From Bacteroidaceae bacterium (GTDB lineage Bacteria > Bacteroidota > Bacteroidia > Bacteroidales > Bacteroidaceae), in the NCBI GenBank assembly GCA_017471185.1, contig JAFUVZ010000063.1:1-45737 (forward strand): a stretch of 45,737 bases of DNA, written 5' to 3'. This document shows, one piece after another, positions 3,927-42,316 of this stretch; positions within the stretch are counted from its first letter, which is position 1, and each line of letters opens with the position of its first letter. The translations under genes and the position numbers were made by a program. The notes beneath the pieces are model-generated. The model saw only the letters and a program-made list of their open reading frames with translations. It did not search any database and was not told where the DNA came from.

Positions 3927-3930
3927 GAAT
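3858..3930 (+). repeat. ATGGAGA/ATGGATA-type short tandem repeat, translated in the tcdA tail
   Basis: Tandem units of the ATGGATA / ATGGAGA type run across the last 22 codons of tcdA and end in ATTAAGAAT just before the next start codon. The same family recurs at 20711-20753 and, on the other strand, at 28275-28338. Confidence 0.85.
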
Positions 3931-9298: not shown

Positions 9299-10123
9299 AT
9301 GAGAACAAAGCATTTGTTTTTGGCTGGAGCCAGCATTCTGATGATGGCTTGCGGCACGAAAGGGGTAAATGAGAATGACATCACGGCGCCAGAGGGCTAT
9401 AAGCTGGTGTGGCATGATGAGTTTAATGAAGGTACGGTCTTAAGTGACGAATGGACTCATGAGGTGAAGGATGACCATTGGGTGAACAACGAGTTGCAGA
9501 ACTATCGCAACGGCGAAGCTGACGGAAAGCGAGTGACTGAAATCAAGGACGGCAACCTGCTGATTCATTGCTTTAAAGGCTCTGACGGTAAGATTTATTC
9601 CGGCCGTGTGTATGCTCATCGCACATCAGGCTGGGAATATGGTTATTTCGAAGCCCGCATCATGTTACCAAAAGGCAAGGGCACTTGGCCAGCGTTCTGG
9701 ATGATGCCTGTCAAGAGCGAATACCGATGGCCTAAATGCGGTGAAATCGACATCATGGAGGAAGTGGGTGTCGTACCAGATGATGTATCATCTTCCCTGC
9801 ATACCGAGACTTACAACCACGTGAAAGGTACACAGAAGACACATCACTTAGACATTCCGGGGGCCGAGGGCGGATGGCACGTGTATGCCTGCGAGTGGAC
9901 TCCTGAAGCCATCACTACCTTCGTTGACGGGAAAGTGCAGCTGGCTGTCACGAAGGCTGAAATGGGTGAAGGTCATGATGAATGGCCTTTCCACTATGCG
10001 TTCTACCCTATCCTGAATCTGGCTTGGGGTGGCGACTGGGGTGGTATGCAGGGTGTTGACGAAAGCGCATTGCCTATCACGATGAAGGTAGATTATATCA
10101 GGGTGTTTCAAATTGATAATTGA
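9299..10123 (+). CDS. Glycoside hydrolase family 16 lipoprotein (beta-1,3 or mixed-linkage glucanase type)
   Basis: 274 aa. Lipoprotein signal (ILMMACG, Cys18), then one GH16 jelly-roll domain from about residue 30 to the end. The catalytic motif is E149-I-D151-I-M-E154 in GEIDIMEEVG, giving the nucleophile Glu149 and acid/base Glu154; the extra Met of the ExDxxE form is typical of laminarinases and lichenases rather than kappa-carrageenase or xyloglucan types. Other conserved parts are FWMMP, HTETYNH and the C-terminal NLAWGGDWGG. It probably cuts beta-1,3 or beta-1,3-1,4 glucan at the cell surface. No SusC/D pair adjoins it directly, and it has its own promoter. Confidence 0.92.
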   Translation: MRTKHLFLAGASILMMACGTKGVNENDITAPEGYKLVWHDEFNEGTVLSDEWTHEVKDDHWVNNELQNYRNGEADGKRVTEIKDGNLLIHCFKGSDGKIYSGRVYAHRTSGWEYGYFEARIMLPKGKGTWPAFWMMPVKSEYRWPKCGEIDIMEEVGVVPDDVSSSLHTETYNHVKGTQKTHHLDIPGAEGGWHVYACEWTPEAITTFVDGKVQLAVTKAEMGEGHDEWPFHYAFYPILNLAWGGDWGGMQGVDESALPITMKVDYIRVFQIDN

Positions 10124-10150
10124 CAATTGACAATTGGTAATTGAAAATTA
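10110..10150 (+). repeat. AATTGACAATTG-type short tandem repeat before pepO
   Basis: Units of the form AATTGATAATTGACAATTGACAA follow each other at the end of the GH16 gene (its last codons and stop lie inside) and run into the pepO promoter. The same family occurs inside the FAD oxidoreductase gene at 28776-28810. Confidence 0.8.
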
Positions 10151-27671: not shown

Positions 27672-28274
27672 TCAGATAGAGTCAGCCTCAACGTATCCTC
27701 GCATGACGGCATAGATGGTGAGTCCCGGAACCGACTTAATGCCCAGTTTCTCAGTGATATTCTTGCGGTGGGTGATGACTGTGGTCAAGCTGATGTTCAG
27801 CTTGTCGGCTATCTCCTTATTGATATAACCTCGCGTCACCAGGCTCAGCACCTCTATCTCACGCATGGAAAGCTCGTTCTGCACAGGAAACTGAGGATGG
27901 ATATGCGGATGAGGCATGCCTGGATGTCCCTTGCCGTGACCAAGCTGATGAAGCTTGAGAATCGATTTGGCCAGATGCTGCTCATCCTGATTGATATTGA
28001 GCGAGAGTACGCCGGAAAGCTGTGTCTGTGTGTCAGCATTGCAGAGCACCACCGTCTGGTATTTCTTCTGCAGGAAGAAAGTGGTATGCTCCAGATAGAT
28101 CTGGGTAGAGACGAAATAATGGGCGAACATATCAGGGGTATCATCCACCAGTTCGGCAAACGAGCCGAAAGTACGAATGGTGACACCCGGAATGATTTCC
28201 TCTAACAGGCTCTCCAGACCCAAACGAGCCAGTGAATTATTATCTATGATAGCGATTTCAAAATCCATACTCAT
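27672..28274 (-). CDS. LuxR-type regulator with receiver-like domain lacking the phospho-acceptor Asp
   Basis: 200 aa (ATG at 28274; a second ATG at 28268 is possible). The N-terminal part (about 4-108) folds like a receiver: IAIIDNNSLARLGLESLL opens it, but the acidic pair is Asp-Asn and the third-strand segment HYFVSTQIYLE (52-62) has Ser/Thr where phosphorylated Asp should be. A linker (112-127) holds five or more His (GHGKGHPGMPHPHIHP). The C-terminal LuxR HTH (about 135-195) is intact: LSMREIEVLSLVTRGYINKEIADKLNISLTTVITHRKNI. It may sense metal or protein partner instead of phosphate; that is inference. It lies directly upstream of the TonB receptor gene, same direction. Confidence 0.85.
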   Translation of the reverse strand: MSMDFEIAIIDNNSLARLGLESLLEEIIPGVTIRTFGSFAELVDDTPDMFAHYFVSTQIYLEHTTFFLQKKYQTVVLCNADTQTQLSGVLSLNINQDEQHLAKSILKLHQLGHGKGHPGMPHPHIHPQFPVQNELSMREIEVLSLVTRGYINKEIADKLNISLTTVITHRKNITEKLGIKSVPGLTIYAVMRGYVEADSI

Positions 28275-28338
28275 TATCCATTATCCATTCTCCATTATCC
28301 ATTCTCCATTATCCATTCTCCATTATCCATTCTCCATT
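28275..28338 (-). repeat. ATGGATA/ATGGAGA-type tandem repeat between the FAD gene and the LuxR-type gene
   Basis: About nine 7-base units of ATGGATA and ATGGAGA (read on the minus strand) occupy the whole gap upstream of the LuxR-type start and run into the FAD gene, encoding its last residues (MENG) and stop. Confidence 0.85.
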
Positions 28339-29975
28339 AAATAAAAGGAAGCAGCTTCCGCACAGCGTTCTCCATCAACAGCAGCAGAGACGATGCCACC
28401 AGCGTAGCCGGCACCCTCGCCACAAGGGAAGAGCCCCTGCACACGAACATGCTGCAAGGAATCCTTGTCGCGCAAGATACGCACAGGAGCAGAGGTTCGT
28501 GTCTCTACGCCGATCACGACAGCCTCGTTGGTAAGAAATCCGTGGCTCTGCTTGCCGAAATAGCGCAAGCCCTCACGCAAGCGGTCGGAGACAAACGAAG
28601 GCATCCAGAAATGCATGGGTGAAGGAATAAGTCCCGGAGCATAGCTGCTCTCAGGCAAGCTGCCTCCCAGACGTCCGTTCACGAAATCAGCCATTCGCTG
28701 GGCAGGAGCCGTCTGCCTGTAGTTGCCCTGCATCCAGCAAAGACGTTCTAAAGCAGCCTGGAAAGCTAACATCTTTAATTGAGAATTGTCAATTGACAAT
28801 TGACAATTACCCTGCGGATTGATATTTTTCCCTAAAGACTCCATATCGATATCGAACGGAGTATTGCCAAGCATCAGTTTTCCATTTTCAAGTGTCAGGT
28901 CTTCAGGCCTGAGTTCCACCACCATACCGCTGTTGCTCCAGGCTGTGTTACGATGACTGGGGCTCATGCCGTTCACCACAATCTGCTCAGGACCCGTAGC
29001 AGCCGGCACCACGATGCCACCCGGGCACATACAGAAGCTATATACCCCCCTGCCCTTCACTTGAGTGACAAAGCTATACTCAGCGGCAGGCAGATATTTT
29101 CCCCTACCTTCGCCACGATGGTATTGTATCTGGTCAATGCGATGAGCCTGATGCTCCAGACGGACACCTACGGCGATACCTTTGGCCTCTAACTCCACGC
29201 CGTTGGCATAGAGCCAGACATAGACATCGCGGGCAGAATGACCGGTAGCCAGGATGACGGGTCCTAAGAACTCTTCACCCGTATTGGTCTGAATGCCCAC
29301 CACCTTATTATCTTTGATGATGATGCCGTCCATTCTGGTTTGGAAATGCACCTCGCCTCCACACATAAGGATCGTCTTGCGCATATTCTCTATCACGCCA
29401 GGCAATTTGTCTGTACCGATATGCGGATGAGCGTCAGCCAGGATAGCGCTTGAAGCCCCATGCTGGCAAAACACGTTCAATATCTTTTCCACATTACCAC
29501 GTTTCTTGCTGCGGGTATAGAGCTTGCCGTCGGAGTAAGCCCCAGCTCCACCCTCGCCAAAGCTGTAGTTTGACTCAGCATCTACCGTTTGGGTACGGCT
29601 GATGTTGGCGATGTCCAGTTTCCGCTGGTGCACATCCTTGCCTCGCTCAATCACGACGGGCTTCAAGCCAAGCTCAATCAGTCTCAAGGCAGCGAAGAGC
29701 CCACCTGGGCCTGCTCCCACCACAATCACCTGGGGTTTGCCATCTACCTCTGGATAAACCACCGGCGTATATTCCAGTTCCTCGGGCTGTTCGTTCACAT
29801 AGACGCGTACCGTAAGATTCACATAGATGGTACGTTGTCTGGCATCAATGCTCCGCTTCAGGATCCTGATGGCGTTGATGCCTGTCAGTCCCTTCTCTTC
29901 TTTCAGATAACGCTTGATGCTGTCGCTATCCGCTGCCACTTCCGGCAATACTCTTATCTGATATTCAGCTGTCAT
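28323..29975 (-). CDS. NAD(P)/FAD-dependent oxidoreductase (COG2509-like)
   Basis: 550 aa from the ATG at 29975; a TTG 9 bases upstream would overlap the radA stop. A short N-terminal domain precedes the FAD Rossmann loop VIVVGAGPGGLFAALR (about 84-99). Other features are YSFGEGGAGAYSDGKLYTR, a family signature, ILATGHSARDVY, and FPCGEGAGYAGGIVSAAVDG near the C-terminus for FAD. Substrate unknown. Two segments are repeat-derived: GNCQLSIDNSQLK (from the AATTGACA repeat at 28776-28810) and the terminal MENG. The ATG lies one base after the radA stop, so they are cotranscribed. Confidence 0.88.
   Translation of the reverse strand: MTAEYQIRVLPEVAADSDSIKRYLKEEKGLTGINAIRILKRSIDARQRTIYVNLTVRVYVNEQPEELEYTPVVYPEVDGKPQVIVVGAGPGGLFAALRLIELGLKPVVIERGKDVHQRKLDIANISRTQTVDAESNYSFGEGGAGAYSDGKLYTRSKKRGNVEKILNVFCQHGASSAILADAHPHIGTDKLPGVIENMRKTILMCGGEVHFQTRMDGIIIKDNKVVGIQTNTGEEFLGPVILATGHSARDVYVWLYANGVELEAKGIAVGVRLEHQAHRIDQIQYHRGEGRGKYLPAAEYSFVTQVKGRGVYSFCMCPGGIVVPAATGPEQIVVNGMSPSHRNTAWSNSGMVVELRPEDLTLENGKLMLGNTPFDIDMESLGKNINPQGNCQLSIDNSQLKMLAFQAALERLCWMQGNYRQTAPAQRMADFVNGRLGGSLPESSYAPGLIPSPMHFWMPSFVSDRLREGLRYFGKQSHGFLTNEAVVIGVETRTSAPVRILRDKDSLQHVRVQGLFPCGEGAGYAGGIVSAAVDGERCAEAASFYLMENG
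28776..28810 (-). repeat. AATTGACAATTG-type repeat in frame inside the FAD oxidoreductase gene
   Basis: About three tandem copies of AATTGACA/AATTGTCA units. Read on the gene strand they encode CQLSIDNSQLK in the middle of an otherwise conserved region. Confidence 0.8.
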
Positions 29976-29976
29976 A

Positions 29977-31377
29977 CTATCCAAATAAAATTCTGAACGC
30001 TTCTTCTACTTTCTTAACTGGAATCAGTTCGATATCCAAGTTCTTGGTATCAAGACCTTTCAAGTTATACTTAGGCAAGACGAACCGCTTGAAGCCAAGC
30101 TTCTGAGCCTCACTGATTCGCTGCATGATGCGGCTCACAGGACGAATCTCGCCCGAAAGGCCAATCTCGCCAGCCACACAGACGCCAGGCTCCAAGGCAG
30201 CATCCATATTGCTCGACAGGATGGCACTGATTACGGCAAGGTCAATCGCCGTATCGTTCACACGCAGTCCGCCAGCTATATTGAGGAACACATCCTTCTG
30301 CGCCAGCTTGAACCCCACGCGCTTCTCCAAGACCGCTAACAGCATGTTCATTCGCCTCAGGTCAAAGCCTGTGGCAGAACGCTGGGGATAGCCGTAAACA
30401 GCACTGCTCACCAAAGCCTGCACCTCAATCAGGAAAGGTCTGACACCCTCGATGGCTCCGGCAATAGCGATGCCGCTCATGCCCTCATGGTCTTCGTTGA
30501 GCAACAGTTCTGAAGGATTGCTCACTTGACGCAAACCATCCTGACGCATCTCATAGATTCCCAGTTCGTCCGTGCTACCGAAGCGGTTCTTAATGCCTCG
30601 CAGGATGCGATACATATAATGCTGGTCGCCTTCGAACTGCAGAACAGTATCTACAATATGTTCCAATATCTTAGGACCGGCAATCGTGCCTTCCTTATTG
30701 ATATGTCCGATCAGGATCACAGCCGTATGGTTCTCTTTGGCGAAACGCAAGATGGAAGCAGCACACTCCCTGATCTGGGTAATGCTGCCAGGTGAAGAAT
30801 CAGCCAGTTCGGTATAGATCGTCTGGATGGAGTCGATAATCACAATGTCTGGCTCCACCTCTCTGATGTGCTTGAAAATCTGCTCCAGCGAGGTTTCGCA
30901 GAGAATCATCAAATCTCCATTCTCCCTACTCCCTACGCCGTCCAAAGATTTCTCAATTCTGTCTGCACGGAGCTTGAGCTGACGATGGCTTTCCTCACCA
31001 CTCACGTAGAGGATGCGTTTCTCCTTCATCTGCAAGGCAGTCTGCATCACCAGCGTACTCTTTCCGATACCCGGTTCACCACCGATCAACACCAATGAAC
31101 CCTTCACCAGTCCGCCTCCCAGCACACGGTTCAGTTCGGCATCATGCATATCGATGCGAGGCTCGGCAGACGCGTCAATCTCATGCAGCCTCACGGGCTT
31201 CATACTTCGCTGTGCGTCATACTGCAAGCCAGCTCCTCCGCCTTTGGATAGCGGTTCCTTGTGTATCACTATTTCCTGAAACGTGTTCCATTGTCCGCAT
31301 GAGGGACACTTGCCCAGCCATTTGGGTGAATCGTATCCGCAATTGGAACAAACGTATGCTGATTTATCTTTCGCCAT
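29977..31377 (-). CDS. radA: DNA repair protein RadA (Sms)
   Basis: 466 aa. N-terminal C4 zinc finger (CSNCGYDSPKWLGKCPSCGQW), RecA-like ATPase with Walker A GGEPGIGKST, the RadA-specific KNRFGSTDELG motif, and a Lon-like C-terminal domain (GVCVAGEIGLSGEIRPV). Branch-migration helicase that extends recombination intermediates. In the segment after GEESHRQLKLRADRIEK there are extra residues (LDGVGSRENGD) that come from a GGGAGTA-type repeat on the DNA (30912-30935). Followed with a 1-base gap by the FAD gene. Divergent from nadK. Confidence 0.95.
   Translation of the reverse strand: MAKDKSAYVCSNCGYDSPKWLGKCPSCGQWNTFQEIVIHKEPLSKGGGAGLQYDAQRSMKPVRLHEIDASAEPRIDMHDAELNRVLGGGLVKGSLVLIGGEPGIGKSTLVMQTALQMKEKRILYVSGEESHRQLKLRADRIEKSLDGVGSRENGDLMILCETSLEQIFKHIREVEPDIVIIDSIQTIYTELADSSPGSITQIRECAASILRFAKENHTAVILIGHINKEGTIAGPKILEHIVDTVLQFEGDQHYMYRILRGIKNRFGSTDELGIYEMRQDGLRQVSNPSELLLNEDHEGMSGIAIAGAIEGVRPFLIEVQALVSSAVYGYPQRSATGFDLRRMNMLLAVLEKRVGFKLAQKDVFLNIAGGLRVNDTAIDLAVISAILSSNMDAALEPGVCVAGEIGLSGEIRPVSRIMQRISEAQKLGFKRFVLPKYNLKGLDTKNLDIELIPVKKVEEAFRILFG
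30912..30935 (-). repeat. GGGAGTA/ATGGAGA-type repeat in frame inside radA
   Basis: On the gene strand it reads GTAGGGAGTAGGGAGAATGG plus AGAT, two GTAGGGA units joined to an ATGGAGA unit. It encodes VGSRENGD in a region of RadA that is shorter in the homologues I recall. A one-and-a-half unit relative of it is at 25145-25156. Confidence 0.65.
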
Positions 31378-31408
31378 AATCTTGCTTCATCAATAAAATG
31401 CAAAGTAA

Positions 31409-31422
31409 CGGAATTTATTCCG
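31409..31422. promoter_or_regulatory. Palindrome CGGAATTTATTCCG in the radA-nadK intergenic region
   Basis: Six-base arms around TT, just upstream of the radA -7 region (TTACTTTG, 31401-31407 on the minus strand), in the 138-bp divergent region. Placement suits an operator, but nothing ties it to a known regulator. Confidence 0.3.
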
Positions 31423-31515
31423 AAGTTCAAAGTTTCATGTCGAAAACCATCCCATCATTTGGAAATATCATCGGAATTTGCTTAATTTGCCTTTTCATCA
31501 AACGAACTAAAGGAT

Positions 31516-32382
31516 ATGAGATTCGCAATCATAGGCAACGAATATCAGGCTGAGAAATCAAAGCACGCCGAGAGCCTGCTCGAGATTCTGGAGAGTCATC
31601 AGGCAAAAGTGATGATTGAGAAAGGCTTTAAGGATTTGCTGGAGCAAGGACAAGGATTGTCGCTGAAGCATGTGGAAAGTTTCACAGACAGGGATTTCAC
31701 GGCTGATATGGTAATCAGCCTGGGTGGCGACGGCACCTTCCTGAAAGCTGCCCGACTCACGGGTAGCCGTAACATTCCTATTCTGGGCATCAACACAGGG
31801 CGTCTGGGATTTCTGGCCGACGTGTCTGTTGACGAGATGGAGATGACCCTCGACGAGATTTACTCCAACCACTACAAGATTGAAGAGCGAAGCGTCTTAC
31901 AGCTCACCACCTCCAACCCTTTGCAGGTTTACCCCTGCGCCTTGAACGAGGTAGCCGTGCTCAAGCATGACAGTTCGTCGATGATCAGCATCAAGGCCTA
32001 TATCAACCGCGAGCACCTCAACACCTACCAGGCTGACGGCCTGATTATCGCTACGCCAACGGGATCTACCGGATATTCTTTGAGCGTAGGAGGTCCTGTA
32101 ATCGCTCCGCAGAGCAAGACGATGGTAATCACTCCTGTAGCTCCGCACAGTCTCAACTGCAGACCTTTAGTGGTGCGCGACGATTGGGAAATCACTTTGG
32201 AAGTGGAGAGCCGAAGCCACAACTTCCTCATTTCCGTTGACGGATGCAGTGAGTCATGCCGGGAAGACACCCGCATCAGAATCTCACGCGCCCCCTACAC
32301 CGTGAAGATGGTGAAACGGTTCGACCATCAGTTCTTCAAAACATTGCGAAGCAAGATGATGTGGGGTGCTGATGCCCGATAA
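31516..32382 (+). CDS. nadK: NAD kinase
   Basis: 288 aa, standard length. GGDG motif at 70-73 ([15 protein letters not shown]), [19 protein letters not shown] (the NE motif), and the glycine-rich [16 protein letters not shown] of the NAD-binding site. Phosphorylates NAD to NADP using ATP in the cytoplasm. Stands alone, divergent from radA, with a 126-bp gap before mdh that holds the mdh promoter. Confidence 0.96.
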
Positions 32383-32449
32383 CCGGATGGTAAGTAAAAA
32401 ATTTATTAAATATATCCGCTATCCTATGCAGATAGTCATAAATATTTCA

Positions 32450-32457
32450 TAAATTTG
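32450..32457 (+). promoter_or_regulatory. -7 box (TAAATTTG) of mdh
   Basis: TAAATTTG fits TAnnTTTG, 52 bases before the ATG. No convincing -33 element. Confidence 0.5.
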
Positions 32458-32508
32458 CAAGTGATATACGAAGACGAATATCATTAACATTTAAATACGT
32501 TATAAATT

Positions 32509-33495
32509 ATGAAGTTCTTAACTGACGAAAAATTGGTCATTGTTGGAGCCGGTGGTATGATCGGTTCTAACATGGTGCAGAGTGTGCTTATGCTGGGTCT
32601 GACTCCCAACATTTGCTTGTATGATATCTATGAGCCGGGTGTCCATGGCGTTTACGATGAGATGTGCCATTGTGCATTCCCATGCGCAAACATCTCTTAC
32701 ACAGTAGATCCTGCAGAGGCTTTCACTGGTGCTAAATACATCATCTCTTCTGGCGGCGCTCCTCGTAAGGAGGGTATGACTCGTGAAGACTTGCTCAAGG
32801 GCAACTGCCAGATTGCAGCAGACTTCGGTGAGAACATCAAGAAATACTGCCCAGACGTGAAGCACGTGGTTGTTATCTTCAACCCAGCTGACGTAACAGC
32901 TCTGACAGCTCTGATCCACTCTGGTCTGAAGCCAAACCAGCTGACCTCTCTGGCTGCTTTGGACAGCACTCGTCTGCAGCAGCAGCTGGCTCAGGAGTTC
33001 GGTGTACAGCAGGACAAGGTGACTAAGGCTTACACCTATGGCGGTCACGGTGAGCAGATGGCTGTATTCGCAAGCAAGGCACTGATCGACGGCAAGCCTC
33101 TGTGCGAGCTGCCTCTGTCCGCTGAGCGTTGGGCTGAGATCAAGCACATGACTATCCAGGGTGGCAGCAACATCATCAAGCTGCGTGGCCGTTCTTCATT
33201 CCAGAGCCCGGCATACCAGGCTGTGAAGATGATCGAGGGCGCTATGGGTGGCGAACCTTTCACTTGGCCAGCTGGCTGCTTTGTGAAGGCTTTCGGCTTT
33301 GAGAACGTGATGATGGCTATGCCTACCGTTATCGACAAGGATGGCGTTCACTTCACCAAGCCTGAGGGCACTGAAGAGGAAATGGCTGCTCTGAATGCTT
33401 CTTACGAGCACTTACAGAAGATGCGCGACGAGCTGGTAACTCTGGAAATCATTCCTCCTATCGCTGAGTGGGGCAAGATGAATCCAAACCTCTAA
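32509..33495 (+). CDS. mdh: Malate dehydrogenase
   Basis: 328 aa. LDH/MDH fold: NAD loop VIVGAGGMIGSN near residue 11, APRKEGMTREDLL substrate loop, NPADVTAL, the ALDSTRLQQQLA segment and catalytic His in YTYGGHGEQMAVF. Oxidises malate to oxaloacetate, or the reverse as part of fumarate and succinate formation in fermenting Bacteroidales. Strong codon bias and good length. Its last residues MNPNL, stop and terminator are repeated exactly 5,693 bp downstream at the end of the AraC-type gene. Confidence 0.96.
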   Translation: MKFLTDEKLVIVGAGGMIGSNMVQSVLMLGLTPNICLYDIYEPGVHGVYDEMCHCAFPCANISYTVDPAEAFTGAKYIISSGGAPRKEGMTREDLLKGNCQIAADFGENIKKYCPDVKHVVVIFNPADVTALTALIHSGLKPNQLTSLAALDSTRLQQQLAQEFGVQQDKVTKAYTYGGHGEQMAVFASKALIDGKPLCELPLSAERWAEIKHMTIQGGSNIIKLRGRSSFQSPAYQAVKMIEGAMGGEPFTWPAGCFVKAFGFENVMMAMPTVIDKDGVHFTKPEGTEEEMAALNASYEHLQKMRDELVTLEIIPPIAEWGKMNPNL

Positions 33496-33553
33496 AATCT
33501 TGTAGGATTTAGTTAAAACTATTTAGAAGCTGCGTCATTATGGCGCAGCTTTT
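33477..33553 (+). repeat. 77-bp perfect direct repeat, left copy (mdh 3' end and terminator)
   Basis: Begins at GATGAATCCAAACCTC in the last mdh codons and ends in the T run of its terminator. Identical at all 77 positions to 39170-39246. The bases just outside differ (A against T on the left, C against T on the right). Confidence 0.97.
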
Positions 33554-33560
33554 CTTTTTT
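33527..33560 (+). terminator. Intrinsic terminator of mdh
   Basis: Arms AAGCTGCG (33527-33534) and CGCAGCTT (33544-33551), then TTCTTTTTT. Most of it lies within the 77-bp repeat. Confidence 0.85.
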
Positions 33561-33569
33561 ATCAATTCA

Positions 33570-34988
33570 CTATTTATGTGAATTATTACGCACTTCATAC
33601 TCCATCTGGCTACCCCAGGCTTTCAAAGGTTCCGGGACACCAGAACCTGATATAGCGCCACGCACCAGCCTAATGTCAGGGTCTGCCTGGATATCCATCT
33701 CTGCATGGCAATCGTGAACAGAAGTCTTCTTTGTTCCCAAAGCTGCACCTATACCTCCGTATGTCTTGTTAAACTCGCCCACGATTCCACCAATCTGAGC
33801 CTGCTTCATGCCACTAAGACGAGCTCGCATTTTAGCAGTACTCTGCGAAATCTCGCCATATCGTTCGCTACCCACGAGACCACCTATAAAGAGTTGGTCT
33901 GTCAATGGGTCACCATCTATATTAATCACTGCATTCGCTTCACAATCAGTAACCGTAGTGGCAGAGGCGACTAATCCACCCACAAAGGCCTTAAACTCTC
34001 CTTCTATCTTAGGCTGACGGAAATGAAGATTTATAGTGAAGTCAGCCTGGCAGTCATGCACTTCACAGTAATTCTCACCAGCCAATCCTCCGACATACAG
34101 TTCTCCTCCGCCAGTTCCAGTGAAAGAAATATTCATCTCGCCCTGTACGGAGCAACGGCTGACGGTACCGTTCCAAGCACCTACCGTCAGAGCAGTTACT
34201 CCAGAAAAGGCGCCTATCGAATTATTCAGGTTTACATCAAAGCGTGCGTTTTTCACCTGAACATTTGTGATGGAAGCAGTTCGGCCACCGTCTTGCTTCA
34301 TGATACCTACTAACGGAGCCACATACATAGCGGTGGTATTCATGTCTATCATGCAATCTTCCAATACCAGGTTGCAGATTTCTCCATTTGCCATTGATCC
34401 GAACATCGCTTTCTTCTCAGCGGTAGGTTTTGTAAGCCTCAAGTTACGGATGGTATGCCCCTGGCCGTCAAATTTCCCTTTGAAAGCGTTACGCCACCAT
34501 TCTCCTTCGGCCCATTCATAGTTGGCTTCATATTCACCCACTTGCACCCAATCATCTATATCTGACAGATCAATGTCATTATCAAGGACATACCATCCAT
34601 GAAGGTCATTCCTCATTCGGTTAAGTCCTTCGGCATCCACGATATGCGTTGGTGCTATCCATCGCGCAAAAAGCGTCATGGGCTTCTCCACTTTCATAGA
34701 ATCGTTTTCCTGGTTCATGAAGGCACCTATCATGCCTACCATTTTGCCAAAGAGCCATTCATCAGCCGCTTTGCCCTCCTTTGAAGTGTACCATCCGCCG
34801 AACCGATAGCCTTCACGCTCAGGGAACGGTTTCTTATCTAACGGTATAGCACATCCTTGTTTCACACATACAGCCTCAATCTTGTCAGCCGTATCATAAT
34901 TCAGGTCAAAGATCACTTCACACTGTTGTGCCTTCAGCTGTATAGAAAAGAAAACACATGCAACGAATAGAATCAAATTCTTTTTCAT
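33570..34988 (-). CDS. Secreted protein with InlB-type repeat and GLUG-like beta-helix repeats
   Basis: 472 aa. Signal peptide (LFVACVFFSIQLKAQ). Residues about 22-112 form a Listeria-Bacteroides (InlB B) repeat: VIFDLNYDTADKIE...REGYRFGGWYTSKEGK...PMTLFARW. After this comes FKGKFDGQGHTIRNLRL and repeated GLUG-like units (MFGSMANGEICNLVLEDC, APLVGIM, VGGLAGENYCEVHDC, VGGLVASATTVTDC, IGGLVGSERYGEISQS, IGGIVGEFN) that stack as a beta-helix. Probably an exposed adhesin or glycan-binding protein. Its ATG lies 1 base after the stop of the GH5-GH43 gene, so it is the second gene of that transcript. Confidence 0.82.
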   Translation of the reverse strand: MKKNLILFVACVFFSIQLKAQQCEVIFDLNYDTADKIEAVCVKQGCAIPLDKKPFPEREGYRFGGWYTSKEGKAADEWLFGKMVGMIGAFMNQENDSMKVEKPMTLFARWIAPTHIVDAEGLNRMRNDLHGWYVLDNDIDLSDIDDWVQVGEYEANYEWAEGEWWRNAFKGKFDGQGHTIRNLRLTKPTAEKKAMFGSMANGEICNLVLEDCMIDMNTTAMYVAPLVGIMKQDGGRTASITNVQVKNARFDVNLNNSIGAFSGVTALTVGAWNGTVSRCSVQGEMNISFTGTGGGELYVGGLAGENYCEVHDCQADFTINLHFRQPKIEGEFKAFVGGLVASATTVTDCEANAVINIDGDPLTDQLFIGGLVGSERYGEISQSTAKMRARLSGMKQAQIGGIVGEFNKTYGGIGAALGTKKTSVHDCHAEMDIQADPDIRLVRGAISGSGVPEPLKAWGSQMEYEVRNNSHK

Positions 34989-34989
34989 A

Positions 34990-37900
34990 TTATTTATTGG
35001 TTACTTGATAATCAAAATAATCTATATCAATATAGCCTCCACCATGGTTGTTGAAAGTAAACAATCCCGTCATATCCCCACGGAAATTACCAGATACCAT
35101 GTGATAGCTTATATCATAAGGATGGAACAGCTGGCCGTCAATGCTCCATGAGAAATGCGCTGTGTCATACATATCCCATTCCGTGCGCAGATAGAGGATT
35201 GTGGAACTTGGCAATTCTTCGCCTATAAGCGGTTCATTTCTCGAGATGACAGGCTTCGAATAATACGAGCTTGATTTACCTTGGTCGGTCAGCAGCAGCA
35301 CTTTTCCTTCTTGTTTTACCACTCCAGCCAAAGCGTAGTCTGCTCCACCATTGAAATGAGCTATACCAGCACGCTGTCCTTCAGACAAATGGCTGATATC
35401 AACCTTCACTGTCACACTGGCTTTTTCACATCTCATAGATCGTTGATTGAGCGTATTGCATACTTTGAAAAAGAAGTCTGATCCATCAGAAGTAGGACTG
35501 GCATAGATTCTCATGAAGCCAGGCCTTTCCGACAAAGACCACTTGCTATCGTCGGGCTGATGATTCCATGCCCAGAAAGGTTTCAGTTCATCCGAGCTGA
35601 AATCATCACTTTGCTGAGGAAGAACAATCTTGTCAGAAGTGATGGGTTTGGGTAAGCTCCACGCCATTTTGCCATGAAGCTCAGAATCTGGATCTACGCC
35701 CACCACAGGCCAGTCTTCTATCCAAGTAACAGGCAGCAAATGGGGTTGCCTGCCTCCTGCATTTCCATCAGTAAACTGAGCCATGTAGTACCATCTTCCA
35801 TCAGGCGTATCAACCAGCCCACCTTGACCAGGGAGTTTCTGAGGATGCAACTGACCATAATATGCAGCTGCTTGATCATTGCTGTCTGATATCTCAACGG
35901 GTGAAGGTGCATCCATCCGATATGTCTCATATTCGCCTAAGTCACCCGGCTTTCCAGGAGTGCCGTCAGGCTTAGTTCCATAAAGGTATTTTGATCTGTA
36001 AACGTGCGTGCCAGCACCTTGCTGCAAGAATTCTATATGAACTAAATAATAATAGCCGTTTCTGCGATATATTTTGTTACCTTCCGATGACTGATGAGGA
36101 GAATAGACTGTTCCACCACCTCTATCAAACTGATAAATGACATTCTCCTCATTCAGGTGATCCACGTCAGCATCCAACAACTGAGTGCCTTCAGGGTTCA
36201 TCTGGAACAAATAGCTATACCAGTATCTGTAGCCCCCCGGCCTACTTGCTGCCAGATAACCATTACCTTCATCATCCCAAACAGGACAAGGATCAGTCCA
36301 GTTGAGCGTTTTCAGCTCTTTTCCGTTCTTGTCTCTCAGACGTTGGGTATGCCAGGGCCCTTCTGGCTTATCTGCCGTACAGACAAACATTCCGTCGGTC
36401 AGGAAATTCACATAAACATAGAATTTTCCATTATGATAGCGCAAACTTGGCGCATATACACCTTCATTGTAACGGTTCATTCTCGAAGGCTTAAATTCAT
36501 TGCTAAATTTATCCAAGTGGTCGAACACTCCCCCCAGAATCTCCCAGTTCACCAAATCAGCAGAATGAAGAATGGTGACACCAGGCACACTTTCAAAAGT
36601 AGATGCTGCCATATAATAATCGTTACCGACGCGAATAGGGTCAGGGTCACTGAAATCTACGGCCAGCACGGGGTTGCGATAGGTTCCGTCACCTTGGTCG
36701 CCCCAATGTCCGGAAATATGGTGGTTTACTGTCGGATCATTATAAAGGCCACCAGCTGGCTTTTGAGGTATCCAGACTGTTTCATGAAGCCTCAGAGCGT
36801 CGATAATCTGCCGGTCGAAACTATTGTTTTCAGGATTGAAGAAACCGAATACTTCACGCAGTCCCCAAATATGACTGCTGAACCCACGCTTCTCAAACTC
36901 ATATTTCAGAAATCCCATATATTTAGCTCTTGAATCAGGATCAGCATCTTCTACCACGCCATATTCCCCTACATAAATAGGCCTGCCATTGCGCTGACTC
37001 CATTGAAAACAATAATCCAGGTCTGCCACTATAGGTTTTCGCTCTGACTCTGATCCTGACCACAGAGTACCCTCAGTTCCTTCAGCTCGTGCATAGCTAA
37101 GACCTTGGTGAGTAAATGTATGGGGCAGATAATAATGCACTTGCACGATGAGGTTCCAGTCATCTGATGGCAACTCAAGTTGGTTGACAGTCCAATGTTG
37201 TCCCAAGTTAGGAGTACTGATGATGAGTGTTCTATCAGGATTTGTCTTCCTCACCAGTTTAATAAGACTATTGAACGTCTCATTCCATTTATCAGCCCCC
37301 ATGCGTATGTTGGGTTCGTTGAGTAAGTCAAAGAAGACCAAGTCATCGGGCTTATCCTTAAAATAAGTGGCTATTTGTTCCCATAAGATTGCCAGACGAT
37401 TGAAGTTCTCCTCATAATTAACAAATGGGTCTTCATCATCCATATTGATATAAGGATAATAATGCATATCAATGGAGACCGCCAATCCGTTCGCCAGACA
37501 CCGTTCCACTATATCATCCACTTTACACAGGAAGGCAGGATCGATGGTATATGGCCTTTGCGAAAGACAATGCTTTGTCCACGTAGTGCAGAGCCTGACA
37601 CTTTTGAAACCAGCATCTGCTATCGCCTTGATCTGTTCATCAGTCAAGGGCATATCCGGAACAGACCCCCTGAAAGAGTTACCATCCACGACTCCATTGA
37701 GGCAGATGCCAGCGCCCAGCCTTTGGTTACGCTCAAAAGCCAGTTTAGCATCGTCTGGTATAGTTGCCGGAGCCTTATCCACAGCCTCTAAAGTATGAAT
37801 ATCGCGATAGAAGCAGAAGTATTTGGTTGCCAAGTCTGAGAATGAAGCATCCAACGTTTTAGGGCGTTGTACGTATCCAGCAGGACCAAAGCTGACGATT

Positions 37901-38205
37901 AGTTTCATACTACTGTCAGACACTTCCAGAAGACCCAACCCATCCATTCCTGTGTCCATTCCGGTCAAGTCAATTTCCAAAGGAGATGTCTGAGTATTAA
38001 TAGCATATCTCCCGTTCATCGTCATTCCAGAGAAAGCTTCGTTCACAAGGCTGAAGGATCCGTCTGGGTGCAAAGAAAAAGTGACAGGCGCCTGTTCACT
38101 AACTGCAAACCATTTACCCATGATCTCTTGGGGTTGATTCGACTGTGCCAACATCTGTATCATGAAAAATGAAACAGTGATCATTAAAACGATTGATCTT
38201 TTCAT
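34990..38205 (-). CDS. GH5-GH43 fusion enzyme (plant cell-wall glycanase/arabinofuranosidase-xylosidase type)
   Basis: 1071 aa. Signal peptide (SFFMIQMLAQ, 1-21); a lipocalin-like small beta domain (about 26-115, IMGKWFAVSE...FSLHPDGSFSL); GH5 (about 155-480) with acid/base Glu297 in LLNEPN and nucleophile Glu414 in YVGEYG; GH43 (about 510-800) with base Asp520 in DFSDPDPIRVG, pKa-setting Asp in WTDPCPVWDDEG and acid Glu in HIEFLQQGAGTH; and a C-terminal concanavalin-like domain (about 860-1071, DDFSSDELKPFWAWNHQPDD), as in GH43 xylosidases. One chain would thus cut a backbone and remove side groups; xylan is likely but not proved. Reads away from the AraC gene. Confidence 0.92.
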   Translation of the reverse strand: MKRSIVLMITVSFFMIQMLAQSNQPQEIMGKWFAVSEQAPVTFSLHPDGSFSLVNEAFSGMTMNGRYAINTQTSPLEIDLTGMDTGMDGLGLLEVSDSSMKLIVSFGPAGYVQRPKTLDASFSDLATKYFCFYRDIHTLEAVDKAPATIPDDAKLAFERNQRLGAGICLNGVVDGNSFRGSVPDMPLTDEQIKAIADAGFKSVRLCTTWTKHCLSQRPYTIDPAFLCKVDDIVERCLANGLAVSIDMHYYPYINMDDEDPFVNYEENFNRLAILWEQIATYFKDKPDDLVFFDLLNEPNIRMGADKWNETFNSLIKLVRKTNPDRTLIISTPNLGQHWTVNQLELPSDDWNLIVQVHYYLPHTFTHQGLSYARAEGTEGTLWSGSESERKPIVADLDYCFQWSQRNGRPIYVGEYGVVEDADPDSRAKYMGFLKYEFEKRGFSSHIWGLREVFGFFNPENNSFDRQIIDALRLHETVWIPQKPAGGLYNDPTVNHHISGHWGDQGDGTYRNPVLAVDFSDPDPIRVGNDYYMAASTFESVPGVTILHSADLVNWEILGGVFDHLDKFSNEFKPSRMNRYNEGVYAPSLRYHNGKFYVYVNFLTDGMFVCTADKPEGPWHTQRLRDKNGKELKTLNWTDPCPVWDDEGNGYLAASRPGGYRYWYSYLFQMNPEGTQLLDADVDHLNEENVIYQFDRGGGTVYSPHQSSEGNKIYRRNGYYYLVHIEFLQQGAGTHVYRSKYLYGTKPDGTPGKPGDLGEYETYRMDAPSPVEISDSNDQAAAYYGQLHPQKLPGQGGLVDTPDGRWYYMAQFTDGNAGGRQPHLLPVTWIEDWPVVGVDPDSELHGKMAWSLPKPITSDKIVLPQQSDDFSSDELKPFWAWNHQPDDSKWSLSERPGFMRIYASPTSDGSDFFFKVCNTLNQRSMRCEKASVTVKVDISHLSEGQRAGIAHFNGGADYALAGVVKQEGKVLLLTDQGKSSSYYSKPVISRNEPLIGEELPSSTILYLRTEWDMYDTAHFSWSIDGQLFHPYDISYHMVSGNFRGDMTGLFTFNNHGGGYIDIDYFDYQVTNK

Positions 38206-38225
38206 ACTCTCAATTTTAATTTTTG

Positions 38226-38233
38226 CAAAGGTA
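38226..38233 (-). promoter_or_regulatory. -7 box (TACCTTTG) of the GH5-GH43 transcript
   Basis: Reverse complement TACCTTTG followed by CAAAAATT, 21 bases before the ATG at 38205, in the gap shared with the divergent AraC gene. Confidence 0.55.
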
Positions 38234-38333
38234 GGAAGATTCAGTTTCTTTATTATTATTCAATTAACGGCAAAAATATCAAAAAGGTCGAATAATGCTT
38301 GTGAAATTCCTTTATCTGCATTATCTTTACACC

Positions 38334-39188
38334 ATGAAGGAGAACAAACGATACCAGTTGGATGAAGGTTTCTGCATCTGTGAATCCTGGGGTGACTGCC
38401 AGAAAGCCTTGACAGGCGATACTCACTTGCCTCATCAGATACAGCAGAATGCAATCCTAATATGTCTGCAGGGTGAAATCACCATAGGCATGAACCTGCA
38501 TAGCTGTTGCTTACGCCAGCTTGACATGACCTTCATTCCTGAAAAAACCATCATTGAGGACATTTCCTGCTCAACCGACGCACAGACCATCATCTGCATC
38601 TTTAACAAAGGATATTATGAGGATGATTCTATCGACAATTCTCTCGTGCGCCAACAGTTACTCATAACACCATCTTATCATATACAAGATGATGCAATAG
38701 AGGAGATATTGACCCTTTTCCATCTCATAGAACGAAAAATTGAAGAGCCTGACAACCTGTATAAAGAGAAAGCTGTGAAAGGCTACATCCAGGTTTTAAT
38801 GAGCTCTGGCTACAACAGCATGAGGCAAAGTTCAGCACTCAGAAACCAGGCTCAAGCCAGCCGCTCGCAACAAGTGTTCCAGCAGTTCCTGCTGTTGGTA
38901 CACCAGCATTATAGACAGGAACATAGCATTTCATTCTACGCCGACAAGATCTGCCTGACTCCTAAATATCTCTCCCAACTGGTGATGCAAGCAAGCGGGC
39001 AACTGGCTGGCGAATGGATCAACCGCTACCTGATGCTTGACGCAAAAGCTTTGCTCTTAGACCAAAAGCACACCATTATGGAGATAAGCGAGTCACTATG
39101 CTTCTCATCGCCTTCTGCCTTTATCGCCTTTTTCAAGAAACATACAGGCACTACACCTAAGAAGTATATGATGAATCCAAACCTCTAA
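38334..39188 (+). CDS. AraC-family transcriptional regulator of the island
   Basis: 284 aa from the ATG at 38334 (MKENKRYQLDEG...), 297 from an ATG at 38295. A TATCTTTA at 38322-38329 sits so close to 38334 that a transcript from it would begin at or just after that ATG, so the start is uncertain. The N-terminal part is a cupin-like sensor (about residues 20-150), the C-terminal part two HTH motifs (ISFYADKICLTPKYLSQLV, IMEISESLCFSSPSAFIAFFKKHTGTTPKKY). The final residues MNPNL and stop are the same as the end of mdh, because the gene ends inside the right copy of the 77-bp repeat. It likely activates the divergent GH5-GH43 transcript in response to a sugar. Confidence 0.88.
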   Translation: MKENKRYQLDEGFCICESWGDCQKALTGDTHLPHQIQQNAILICLQGEITIGMNLHSCCLRQLDMTFIPEKTIIEDISCSTDAQTIICIFNKGYYEDDSIDNSLVRQQLLITPSYHIQDDAIEEILTLFHLIERKIEEPDNLYKEKAVKGYIQVLMSSGYNSMRQSSALRNQAQASRSQQVFQQFLLLVHQHYRQEHSISFYADKICLTPKYLSQLVMQASGQLAGEWINRYLMLDAKALLLDQKHTIMEISESLCFSSPSAFIAFFKKHTGTTPKKYMMNPNL

Positions 39189-39246
39189 AATCTTGTAGGA
39201 TTTAGTTAAAACTATTTAGAAGCTGCGTCATTATGGCGCAGCTTTT
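39170..39246 (+). repeat. 77-bp perfect direct repeat, right copy
   Basis: Identical to 33477-33553. It supplies the last five codons and stop of the AraC-type gene in the same frame as in mdh. Confidence 0.97.
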
Positions 39247-39248
39247 TT
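39220..39248 (+). terminator. Terminator of the AraC-type gene (copy of the mdh terminator)
   Basis: Arms AAGCTGCG (39220-39227) and CGCAGCTT (39237-39244) followed by a total of six T. Confidence 0.85.
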
Positions 39249-39267
39249 GATTTCCAATAAAAATGTG

Positions 39268-39275
39268 TACATTTG
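39268..39275 (+). promoter_or_regulatory. -7 box (TACATTTG) of the coiled-coil protein gene
   Basis: TACATTTG followed by CAGC, 30 bases before the ATG at 39306. Confidence 0.6.
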
Positions 39276-39305
39276 CAGCGTTTTTATTAATAAAGACTGT
39301 GTATT

Positions 39306-40181
39306 ATGAAAAAGAACACGTTATTAGGAATCATAGGTGCCGTCCTGCTGGCAGCATTGGTGGGAATCACTTACCTGCTCTTTATGGAGAAGCAGGCTAA
39401 CAGAGAGATGCTGGAGGAATTCAGACTGGAGAAAGAGGATCTGGAGAACGAATATACTAATTTCTCCCAGCAGTATGACGAGCTGAAGATGACGGTGGCC
39501 AACGACTCACTGGCTCAGCTCCTGGAGCAGGAGCAGATCAAGACGCAGCGATTGCTGGAGGAACTGCGTACCGTAAAGAGTACCAACGCCACAGAGATAC
39601 GTCGCCTGAAAAACGAGCTGGCTACCTTGCGCAAGGTGATGGTGGGCTACGTGAACCAGATTGACTCGCTGAACCGACTGACTGAGCAGCAACGCGTGCA
39701 GATTGCTGAGGTAACAGAGAAATACGAACAGGCTACACGCCAGGTAAGCTCGCTAAGCGAGGAGCGCAAGACGCTGACCAAACAGGTTACCCTCGCCTCT
39801 CAGCTGGACGCTAACAACATCTACCTCTTCCCACAGAATAAGCGAGGCAAGGAGGCTAAGAAGGTGAAGGATATCCAGAAGTTCCGCATCTCTTTCAATA
39901 TCGCCAAGAATATCACGGCTCAGGCTGGTGAGAAGACGGTTTACATCCGTATCACCAAGCCCGACAACGATATCCTGACGAAGGACCGTAATGATACCTT
40001 TACTTTTGAGAACCGCCAGTTGGCTTACTCTATCAAGAAGTATATCGAGTACACAGGTGAGGAACAGGCCGTTACCGTTTATTGGGACGTGAACGAAGTG
40101 CTCTATGCCGGCAATTATCGCGTGGATATCTTCGCCGACGGCAATATGATTGGTCAAGGAACATTCCTGCTGACCAAGTAA
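39306..40181 (+). CDS. Membrane-anchored coiled-coil protein, Bacteroidales hypothetical
   Basis: 291 aa. One N-terminal membrane helix (LLGIIGAVLLAALVGITYLLF, about 5-26), then a long coiled coil (about 27-160, rich in Leu, Glu, Gln and Arg, e.g. EQEQIKTQRLLEELRT and SLNRLTEQQRVQIAEVTEKYEQA), then a C-terminal beta domain (about 170-291, FRISFNIAKNITAQAGEKTVYIRITKPD...VTVYWDVNEVLYAGNYRVDIFADGNMIGQG). The last domain looks immunoglobulin-like. No known function that I can name; the layout suggests a periplasmic or cytoplasmic structural role at the envelope. Single gene with its own promoter and terminator. Confidence 0.82.
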   Translation: MKKNTLLGIIGAVLLAALVGITYLLFMEKQANREMLEEFRLEKEDLENEYTNFSQQYDELKMTVANDSLAQLLEQEQIKTQRLLEELRTVKSTNATEIRRLKNELATLRKVMVGYVNQIDSLNRLTEQQRVQIAEVTEKYEQATRQVSSLSEERKTLTKQVTLASQLDANNIYLFPQNKRGKEAKKVKDIQKFRISFNIAKNITAQAGEKTVYIRITKPDNDILTKDRNDTFTFENRQLAYSIKKYIEYTGEEQAVTVYWDVNEVLYAGNYRVDIFADGNMIGQGTFLLTK

Positions 40182-40205
40182 ACAGAAGTTTTCCCTATAA
40201 AACAG

Positions 40206-40239
40206 AAAAGGTTGATACCCGGAAAGTATCAACCTTTTT
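40206..40239. terminator. Bidirectional terminator between the coiled-coil and fructokinase genes
   Basis: Arms AAAAGGTTGATAC (40206-40218) and GTATCAACCTTTT (40226-40238) around CCGGAAA, with T and A runs on both sides; it serves both convergent genes. Confidence 0.88.
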
Positions 40240-40258
40240 CTATATGCCTAAAGTTTTC

Positions 40259-41143
40259 TTAGAAGTTGGCCTTCAGCTCATCAGGGAGCACAGGCATCGC
40301 TCCACTCTGGGTACACACGAAGGCACTGACCTCAACAGCCAGCTTGTGTGCTTCCTCAACAGGCTTGCCTGCCAGGATAGCAGCAGTGAATGCGCCCGTG
40401 AAGCTATCGCCTGCGCCAACGGTGTCTGCTACAGGCACTCTGGGTGTTGGCTGGAAGGAAATCTTGCCTGGAGTGAACACATAGCTTCCGTCAGTGCCAC
40501 AGGTCAGGATTAGCATCTTCAGACCATACTTAGCCAGCAGAATCCAACATTTGTCTTGCTGAGAGATAGAATGGAATCCGAACATGCGGCTTACCAGTTC
40601 CAGCTCTTCGTCGTTAATCTTCAACACATTGCAGCTTGACATTGATTCCTCCAGCAAGTCTGCGGTATAGAAGTTCTGACGAAGGTTGATGTCGAATATC
40701 TTCAGGGTATCAGCGTCCTCCGGCATTTCCTTCAGGAATCGCACGATGGTATCATGACTCACGGCACTACGCTGAGCCAGAGAGCCGTAGCATACGGCAC
40801 GGGCATTGTGAGCCAACTCCTTCAGTTCGTTCGTGAAAGGTATATTGTCCCAAGCCACACCCTTCTTGATCTCGTATGACGGGATGCCTTTTTCGTCAAG
40901 CGTAACCTGAACGGTGCCGGTTGGGAAGGGCACGCGCTCTATCTGCGTATTCAGTCCGCGCTGATTGAAGATGCGCATGATTTCATCGCCATCCTCGTCA
41001 TTACCTACTGCGCTGACCACGCAGCTCTTGAATCCAAACTGAGAGACATGATAGGCGAAGTTTGCCGGCGCGCCACCTATCTTCTTTCCATCGGGCAGGC
41101 AATCAAACAACGCCTCACCCATTCCTACAACGATGTCTTTCAT
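40259..41143 (-). CDS. PfkB-family carbohydrate kinase, probable fructokinase
   Basis: 294 aa. PfkB fold with N-terminal GEALFDCLPDGKKIGGAPANFAYH (sugar site), and the C-terminal ATP and catalytic motif DTVGAGDSFTGAF with the base Asp in GAGD. Phosphorylates fructose released by the GH32 enzyme and taken in by the MFS gene that ends 6 bases upstream. Last gene of the four-gene fructan transcript. The gene order MFS-kinase matches the fructose part of the Bacteroides thetaiotaomicron levan locus as I recall it (BT1757-BT1758). Confidence 0.92.
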   Translation of the reverse strand: MKDIVVGMGEALFDCLPDGKKIGGAPANFAYHVSQFGFKSCVVSAVGNDEDGDEIMRIFNQRGLNTQIERVPFPTGTVQVTLDEKGIPSYEIKKGVAWDNIPFTNELKELAHNARAVCYGSLAQRSAVSHDTIVRFLKEMPEDADTLKIFDINLRQNFYTADLLEESMSSCNVLKINDEELELVSRMFGFHSISQQDKCWILLAKYGLKMLILTCGTDGSYVFTPGKISFQPTPRVPVADTVGAGDSFTGAFTAAILAGKPVEEAHKLAVEVSAFVCTQSGAMPVLPDELKANF

Positions 41144-41149
41144 AATATT

Positions 41150-42316
41150 TTATGCTTTAACTTGTTTGATAAACGTTAACAGATAAATCACGCCGACAGC
41201 CATAACGAGCACGGCTCCTGCCTGGCCCATAGCGTCACTGGCGAAACCCATGATCAATGGGAAGATGGTGCCACCGAAGAGGCCCATGATCATCAGACCG
41301 CTCACCTCGTTCTGCTTCTCAGGCACAGAAAGCAGAGCCTGACTGAACACGATGGAGAAGATGTTGGAGTTGCCGTAACCCACGAGGGCGATGCCTGCAT
41401 AGAGTAACCAACGGCTCTCGCCTACGAAGAGCAGAATCATGCTCAACGCCATCATCACCAAGCTGATGGTGAAGAAAGTACGGGCCTTCATCACACGCAG
41501 GAAGAAAGAGCCTGTCAAGCAACCAACGGTACGGAAGATGAAATACAGACTGGTAGCGAAAGCTGCCTCGTTCAAGGTCATACCCAATCGCTCCATCAGA
41601 ATCTTCGGAGCTGTGGTATTCACACCTACGTCGATACCCACGTGGCACATGATGCCGAAGAATGACAGCAGCACGATAGGCTTACCCAGCAACTGGAAGC
41701 ACTCAATGAAAGTGGAAGGCTTGCCCTCGATAGGTTCTTCCTCTATCTTGGTTGCGCCCAGCACCAAAGCCGCGATGACAGCCACTACGAGGAAAATGCC
41801 GAAGAGGATTCGCCAGCCATAGCCGAAGTCGGGAATAAGCTGTGTAGCTCCCCACATAGCCAGATAAGGAGCGGAGAACGAAGCGATGGCCTTGATAAAC
41901 TGACCGAAAGTCAGCGTGGAAGCCAGGTTCTCGCCTCCGATGACGGATGAAACCAACGGATTGACAGAAGTCTGCATCAATGCGTTACCAATACCCAGCA
42001 GGGAGAAGGAAACGAGCATGATGACGAATGAATTGCCAAACAGAGGCAGCAACAATGAGAACACAGTCACCACTAAAGACAACAACACGGTCTTCTTGCG
42101 GCCAATCCTGTTCATCAGCATGCCTGTAGGCACAGCGAAGATCAGGAACCAGAAGAACACCAGCGACGGAAAGATATTAGCGACTGAGTCCGTCAACTGC
42201 AAGTCGTCCTTTACGTAGTTTGAGGCGATGCCGACCAGATCAACAAAGCCCATAGCGAAGAAGCAGAGCATCACGGGCATCAGCTTCGCCATTTTAGATT
42301 GATTTTGATTACTCAT
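41150..42316 (-). CDS. MFS sugar transporter, probable fructose importer (FucP/GluP-like)
   Basis: 388 aa with about 12 hydrophobic helices. Typical MFS loop between helices 2 and 3 (GMLMNRIGRKKTV), central charged loop (GATKIEEEPIEGKPS), and the LFGGTIFPLIMGFASD part near helix 11. Proton- or sodium-driven inner-membrane uptake of a monosaccharide; fructose from context between GH32 and a fructokinase. 6 bases before the kinase gene. Between it and GH32 lies a 205-bp gap with a large inverted-repeat element. Confidence 0.9.
   Translation of the reverse strand: MSNQNQSKMAKLMPVMLCFFAMGFVDLVGIASNYVKDDLQLTDSVANIFPSLVFFWFLIFAVPTGMLMNRIGRKKTVLLSLVVTVFSLLLPLFGNSFVIMLVSFSLLGIGNALMQTSVNPLVSSVIGGENLASTLTFGQFIKAIASFSAPYLAMWGATQLIPDFGYGWRILFGIFLVVAVIAALVLGATKIEEEPIEGKPSTFIECFQLLGKPIVLLSFFGIMCHVGIDVGVNTTAPKILMERLGMTLNEAAFATSLYFIFRTVGCLTGSFFLRVMKARTFFTISLVMMALSMILLFVGESRWLLYAGIALVGYGNSNIFSIVFSQALLSVPEKQNEVSGLMIMGLFGGTIFPLIMGFASDAMGQAGAVLVMAVGVIYLLTFIKQVKA

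Follow-up and report, generated by a model that had tools for sequence, protein, structure and literature searches.

How a block of carbohydrate-use genes comes to be bordered on both sides by perfect copies of the end of a neighbouring gene is the question raised by a 45,737-nucleotide stretch of a Bacteroidaceae genome (GenBank assembly GCA_017471185.1, contig JAFUVZ010000063.1; this whole stretch is referred to below as the window). The block is a 5.6-kb cassette in which the gene of an AraC-family regulator is divergent from genes for a two-domain GH5-GH43 glycoside hydrolase and a GLUG protein. It lies just downstream of mdh, which encodes a malate/lactate dehydrogenase-family protein, and a 77-bp direct repeat stands at its two borders (Table 1). 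An earlier note on this DNA, made from the letters alone, regarded the duplicated gene end as a hallmark of integration and proposed movement by homologous recombination through the repeat or by an integrase acting in trans. We favour a different account, to which we assign a probability of roughly 0.6: foreign DNA was captured through short homology and microhomology at two unlike joints, without integrase-driven integration.

The cassette was inserted secondarily between mdh and the gene that natively follows it on the right, which encodes a coiled-coil protein. A search with the mdh 3' end matched 13 of 158 genomes of the genus, the window's own genome among them, and ten of the 12 others that were examined proved informative (in G119 the stretch ends 267 bp past mdh, and in G121 it holds no coiled-coil gene). 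In all ten, mdh and the coiled-coil gene are adjacent, separated by a gap of 112-188 bp with nothing between them, which places the gain of the cassette in the window's lineage. Seven further records with both genes turned out to be contigs already counted among these ten and are not independent. The empty allele that the earlier note had anticipated (mdh, one terminator, then the coiled-coil gene) was thus found in every informative relative, and the opposite pattern that it had named, with all relatives carrying the three genes and both repeats, was not seen. The other cargo that it had envisaged between the same repeats was absent from all ten informative relatives, each species being represented by one genome.

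The two copies of the repeat (33477-33553 and 39170-39246) match at 77 of 77 bases, as had been described, and the repeat is maximal in extent. A search of the window's own genome (2,763,526 bases; a fragmented draft of 85 contigs, 80% complete) with 201 bases of the mdh 3' end returned only the two copies at E <= 0.001. Perfect direct repeats of at least 60 bp with a spacing above 200 bp were found in four contexts only (the window, G082, L040 and L112) within 1,030,433 bases, made up of 117 partly redundant locus records with the window included, and one further context, a signal-peptidase-like array, came from 293,360 bases of the own genome sampled later. Such repeats are so rare in the surveyed bases that a chance origin of the 77-bp repeat is excluded. 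Whereas the two copies are identical, L019, the nearest among seven sister sequences compared, departs from them over repeat positions 4-77 by 3 mismatches and 3 gap columns; either the duplication or its last homogenisation is therefore younger than that split, which agrees with the recent event or gene conversion proposed before. A hairpin of 13 pairs, followed by a T-rich tail, is present in each copy. Terminator-like sites in the region number 5 against 4.2 expected in shuffles, so that the terminator scan proves little by itself.

The composition of the right copy bears directly on the question of mechanism. The AraC reading frame (38334-39188) enters this copy and stops inside it; the initial 19 bp of the copy are at once the last "mdh codons" and the AraC C-terminus. 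In G158, a member of another genus of the family, divergent AraC (85% amino-acid identity) and GLUG (81%) genes lie on a contig other than that of its mdh. The AraC gene is 855 nt long in both genomes and in register, ending in RMNPDL (DNA GATGAATCCAGACCTCTAG) in G158 and in MMNPNL (DNA GATGAATCCAAACCTCTAA) in the window. The G158 AraC end matches the start of the window's repeat at 17 of 19 bases, or 23 of 27 when extended, and the next-best site for its 27 bp in 339 kb of the own genome (both strands) reaches 18 of 27. Since the G158 gene has the same length and a natively similar end, there is no need to regard the initial 19 bp of the right copy as a captured piece of mdh; they are best read as the native end of the AraC gene, which resembles the end of mdh. 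Beyond them, the right copy tracks the host mdh 3' untranslated region (3'UTR) as it is in sister species and shows little likeness to G158, at 23 of 58 positions (ungapped), so that these other 58 bp look like a host duplication of the mdh 3'UTR and terminator. The earlier statement that both copies contain the mdh end and terminator is right as to the letters, but the AraC stop in the right copy had been overlooked, and we read the opening 19 bp of that copy as of another origin. Because, judged by the G158 homologue, the right copy opens with the AraC gene's own end, the two ends of the insert would have been joined in different ways.

At the left border, the sequence after the hairpin runs through TTTTCTTTTTT into the cassette, and a run of eight T follows the GLUG gene in G158. 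The simplest reading of this joint would be microhomology between T-tracts.

In the scheme that we propose, a cassette whose genes have relatives in another genus of the family would have entered between mdh and its native neighbour, the right joint arising where the native AraC end (ATGAATCCA[A/G]ACCTCTA) was joined to the look-alike mdh end and the left joint where the cassette became attached within the T-tract of the mdh terminator. The cassette probably landed after mdh because the AraC gene and mdh end in nearly the same letters. On the chromosome the two joints lie 77 bp apart and are ordered so that the interval between them is duplicated; with the right joint upstream of the left one, the mdh 3'UTR and terminator would come to be present twice. 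As an outcome, mdh would keep its reading frame and terminator, the AraC gene would acquire a terminator, and the neighbour would retain its own upstream sequence. Illegitimate recombination and template switching during repair are candidate pathways, and in a two-step variant a recircularised intermediate would be followed by a single crossover. The insertion itself, its empty allele, the native end of a related AraC gene and the rough positions of the joints are established here; the recombination pathway is inferred, and gene conversion may have polished the repeat later. Taken as a whole, the event looks like an accidental gene capture of an ordinary, known kind rather than the work of a mobile element. 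Moreover, the AraC and GLUG proteins are closer between the window and G158 (85% and 81%) than is a RadA-like housekeeping protein (named by inspection; 70% identical), which favours a transfer of the cassette genes between the lineages, in either direction.

Homology-facilitated illegitimate recombination (HFIR) offers a close parallel: in that process one joint is guided by homology and the other is illegitimate, and foreign DNA is gained without an integrase. A homologous joint of this kind was found here at one end, short and measured against G158 as a proxy donor, and the T-tract joint at the other end is a candidate for the illegitimate one. The differences are that the guiding homology here spans about 19-27 bp with mismatches, and that recipient DNA was duplicated, not deleted. 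Duplication-flanked insertions are common among one-homology recombinants in Escherichia coli conjugation according to one report (PMC3240628), in which 56 of 60 clones gave a duplication-diagnostic product in the polymerase chain reaction and 14 sequenced duplications measured 109-950 bp. Like these single-crossover integrants, the present insert is bordered by a direct duplication of recipient sequence (77 bp here); in those experiments the homologous segment had been placed on the incoming DNA deliberately (PMC3240628), while in the cassette the 58-bp part of the repeat appears to be host-derived. In effector displacement in type VI secretion systems (PMC5361080), modules are also added next to retained older sequence, and the authors propose an HFIR-like process; there, the process is recurrent at the locus and displaces effector genes, while here we see one event and no displaced gene. 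Within the available portions of the literature on mdh as an integration site, integrase-less islets, microhomology and template switching, illegitimate recombination, and GH5-GH43 enzymes, no account of this arrangement was found.

Several observations weigh against capture at two unlike joints. The native AraC end is taken from G158, with G082 as a distant comparison; at E <= 1e-60, AraC relatives were found in one of six genomes of G158's genus and in one of 157 sampled family genomes, both being G158 itself. This genome is a proxy donor with 78-83% DNA identity, and its 19-kb stretch holds no GH5-GH43 gene. The argument for transfer uses one yardstick gene, and the very conserved mdh, with 84% identity to its G158 counterpart, is at least as close as the cargo overall. 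T-tracts stand on both sides of the left joint, which is a low-complexity sequence compared with the same proxy donor. The AraC and mdh ends also remain alike in the 8 bp after the stop (6 of 8), a likeness better explained if the AraC gene had captured an mdh tail at an earlier time. Across seven sister species, the mdh end matches the G158 AraC end at 13-15 of 19 and 16-19 of 27 positions, and hence the homology before insertion may have been shorter. In addition, an ATG codon of mdh within the repeat is GAG in nine and ATT in one of ten relatives, and it may have been converted by the AraC end; the codon was not accepted as proof of a unique scar of recombination, because ATG stands at that place in 5 of 42 mdh rows (window included). 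Codon use is not decisive as a sign of foreign origin, since native genes rank among the cargo: of 30 window genes, GH5-GH43 is the third most atypical, GLUG the fifth and AraC the eighth, with native genes interspersed. Finally, relatives were sampled at one genome per species, and many of the genomes are incomplete.

Among other explanations, a circular molecule that carried the cassette with a copy of the mdh 3' end could have entered by one homologous crossover within the 77-bp repeat, and could leave by the same route. The product would have exactly the structure seen, the perfect identity of the copies is compatible with a recent crossover or conversion, and the authors of PMC3240628 attribute their duplications to trimmed, recircularised molecules followed by a single crossover. 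What makes this route unlikely in our judgement is that the cassette would first have to have been joined to an mdh tail of this lineage, given a 58-bp part that is like sister mdh ends and unlike G158, and that no third copy of the repeat turned up in the search of the own genome. It is also possible, if improbable, that the AraC gene of this cassette family took up an mdh tail long ago, which has since served as built-in homology for landing at mdh ends. The 23 of 27 agreement that includes 8 bp of 3' flank, and the different end of the more distant G082 AraC gene (56%), speak for such a history; past those 8 bp, G158 has no mdh terminator, and its own mdh end is unlike its AraC end (12 of 27). 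An old tail of this kind would be compatible with short-homology capture and does not exclude it.

Gene 3' ends are common as attachment (att) sites. Integrase islands at gene 3' ends, and att-flanked elements that lack an integrase, resemble the cassette in that the gene stays intact and a direct repeat of its 3' end lies at both borders; the cassette differs in having no integrase, no alternative cargo in the relatives seen, and a right copy that opens with the native end of a cargo gene. For these same reasons we do not take the duplicated gene end as an integrase hallmark. The earlier note's suggestion of an integrase acting in trans, here a tyrosine recombinase that moves a non-autonomous island with the mdh 3' end as attB, could draw on six PF00589 matches in the own genome, five of them above the cut-off. 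All six are on contigs other than the window's, the ten informative relatives carry no cargo at this place, and on the right the insert closes with the ordinary native end of a gene; furthermore, at the sensitivities used, viral contigs held no exact match to the terminator pattern, and megablast with positions 33400-39300 found no match in plasmids or phages. We therefore regard this route as very unlikely. The remaining concern is the assembly itself, in which strain variants could have been collapsed or misjoined at a shared stretch of 77 bp, a length near common assembler k values, in a fragmented draft genome. Among 27 contig ends compared (19 starts and 8 far ends), one pair shares exactly 79 bases and another exactly 141, two pairs only, which presumably reflect MEGAHIT k values. 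The assembler k thus seems to be above 77, so that the repeat need not be a collapsed one, and G158 has an AraC gene that equals the window's in length and ends in a similar way; we hold an artefact to be very improbable.

Table 1. Features of the mdh and cassette region, in window coordinates.
Feature	Positions	Strand	Evidence
mdh, malate/lactate dehydrogenase-family protein, 328 aa	32509..33495	+	Pfam Ldh_1_N/Ldh_1_C; 94-97% aa identity in 10 relatives
Left copy of the 77-bp repeat	33477..33553	+	last five mdh codons, stop, 3'UTR, terminator; resembles mdh 3' ends of sister species
Predicted mdh terminator hairpin with T-rich tail	33525..33553	+	13-pair stem and T tail; fold z -3.87 for 33477-33565
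Putative left joint zone, host terminator T-tract running into cassette DNA just past the GLUG stop	33550..33569	.	right copy gives host continuation; run of T downstream of GLUG in G158
GLUG / Listeria-Bacteroides repeat protein, 472 aa	33570..34988	-	Pfam PF07581, PF09479 (List_Bact_rpt); 81% aa in G158
GH5-GH43 two-domain glycoside hydrolase, 1071 aa	34990..38205	-	Pfam PF00150, PF04616, PF17851
Divergent intergenic region (putative promoter)	38206..38333	.	alignable to G158 counterpart
AraC-family regulator, 284 aa; last 19 nt within right repeat copy	38334..39188	+	PF12833; equal length and 85% aa vs G158 gene
Right copy, first 19 bp; putative right joint zone, read as native AraC 3' end resembling mdh 3' end	39170..39188	+	17/19 to G158 AraC end; 23/27 with 8 bp 3' flank
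Right copy, other 58 bp; apparent duplicate of mdh 3'UTR and terminator, now after AraC	39189..39246	+	identical to left copy; 23/58 ungapped to G158 downstream of AraC; hairpin present
Coiled-coil protein, native right neighbour of mdh	39306..40181	+	adjoins mdh in 10/10 relatives holding both; no Pfam family

Family searches agree with the gene content given in the earlier note, as well as with its statement that the cassette has no integrase: neither an integrase nor a transposase was found among the three cargo proteins with Pfam and NCBIfam. None of the 20 inverted-repeat pairs of at least 18 nt listed for 30000-42000 has arms at both cassette ends. An insertion borne by an insertion sequence or transposon is accordingly not supported (no cargo transposase, a direct repeat of 77 bp, no terminal inverted repeats among the pairs listed). 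A search of viral contigs for the GH5-GH43 protein gave 10 stretches that fit a pattern, none of them a relative. In several other family members, the frame that follows mdh looks like a XerC/D-type gene from its first residues; we take it for a housekeeping xerC gene that does not point to an att site. For mdh itself, NCBIfam malate dehydrogenase models hit the product, yet score under their cut-offs.

The hydrolase is matched in other genomes by halves, the best-matching rows aligning to either its GH5 half or its GH43 half. The GH5 half is 75% identical to a G082 protein and closest to solved endoglucanases, while the GH43 half is 55-58% identical to proteins of G125, G347 and G178 and closest to solved GH43 enzymes, including beta-xylosidases and arabinofuranosidases. 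The cassette seems to be a plant-sugar-digesting gene set, with putative substrates, in a bacterium related to gut species. An alternative upstream start of the AraC gene is possible (ATG at 38295). The GLUG protein is rare: with the own genome included in both counts, it has matches in 3 of 158 genomes of the genus at E <= 1e-15, where G100 contributes a broken fragment, and in 3 of 399 sampled family genomes at E <= 1e-60. The fragment in G100 (contig 12, L109, 6457-7139) is 75% identical over residues 58-224, does not lie at mdh, and breaks off into other sequence close to the contig end. G082 has a related cassette of AraC (56%), GLUG (44%) and GH5 (75%) genes without GH43, which adjoins an mrp-like gene (named by inspection). 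Its GLUG and GH5 genes begin with the same perfect 64 bp (contig 79, L108, 2059-2122 and 3504-3567), which open with the start codon and reach roughly to where the signal peptide ends as judged by inspection, as if signal-peptide DNA had been copied between the two genes. Around the cassette homologues in G082 (L108), G187 (L116) and G100 (L109), no repeat flanks the cassette, and G082 has only this signal-peptide repeat. Cassette order is reshuffled at gene starts, with GH5-GH43 (34990-38205) followed by GLUG in the window, the promoter region followed by GLUG in G158 (L169, 10500-10670), and GLUG followed by GH5 in G082 (L108).

Other repeats were observed in the same genome. Perfect repeats of 109, 83 and 50 bp occur in the signal-peptidase-like array, of signal peptidase I type (contig 13, L158, 3831-13170; names by inspection), which has two complete copies of the gene besides partial remnants from its 3' or 5' side and separates propeller-like genes and a serpin-like gene. 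Within the window, dispersed short repeats on TAATGGAGAATGGA lie at 3849-3927, 20696-20746 and 28274-28343, one of the three being inverted; looser relatives stand at 10110-10146 and 28776-28812.

It is conceivable, though we think it quite doubtful, that the mdh-like 3' end of the AraC gene is a built-in landing homology and that carbohydrate cassettes insert in this way at the ends of housekeeping genes without an integrase. If so, such cassettes would leave the target gene whole, share its terminator, and could be lost through the duplicated terminator. More generally, as an empty allele, the two joint zones and a relative of the locus from another genus can all be inspected, the mdh locus gives a near base-level view of how a cassette may enter a genome without mobile machinery. 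An island bordered on each side by perfect copies of a gene 3' end does not on that ground alone point to an integrase att site, and, if joints such as these are common, islets that lack an integrase could be traced by their gene-end look-alikes.

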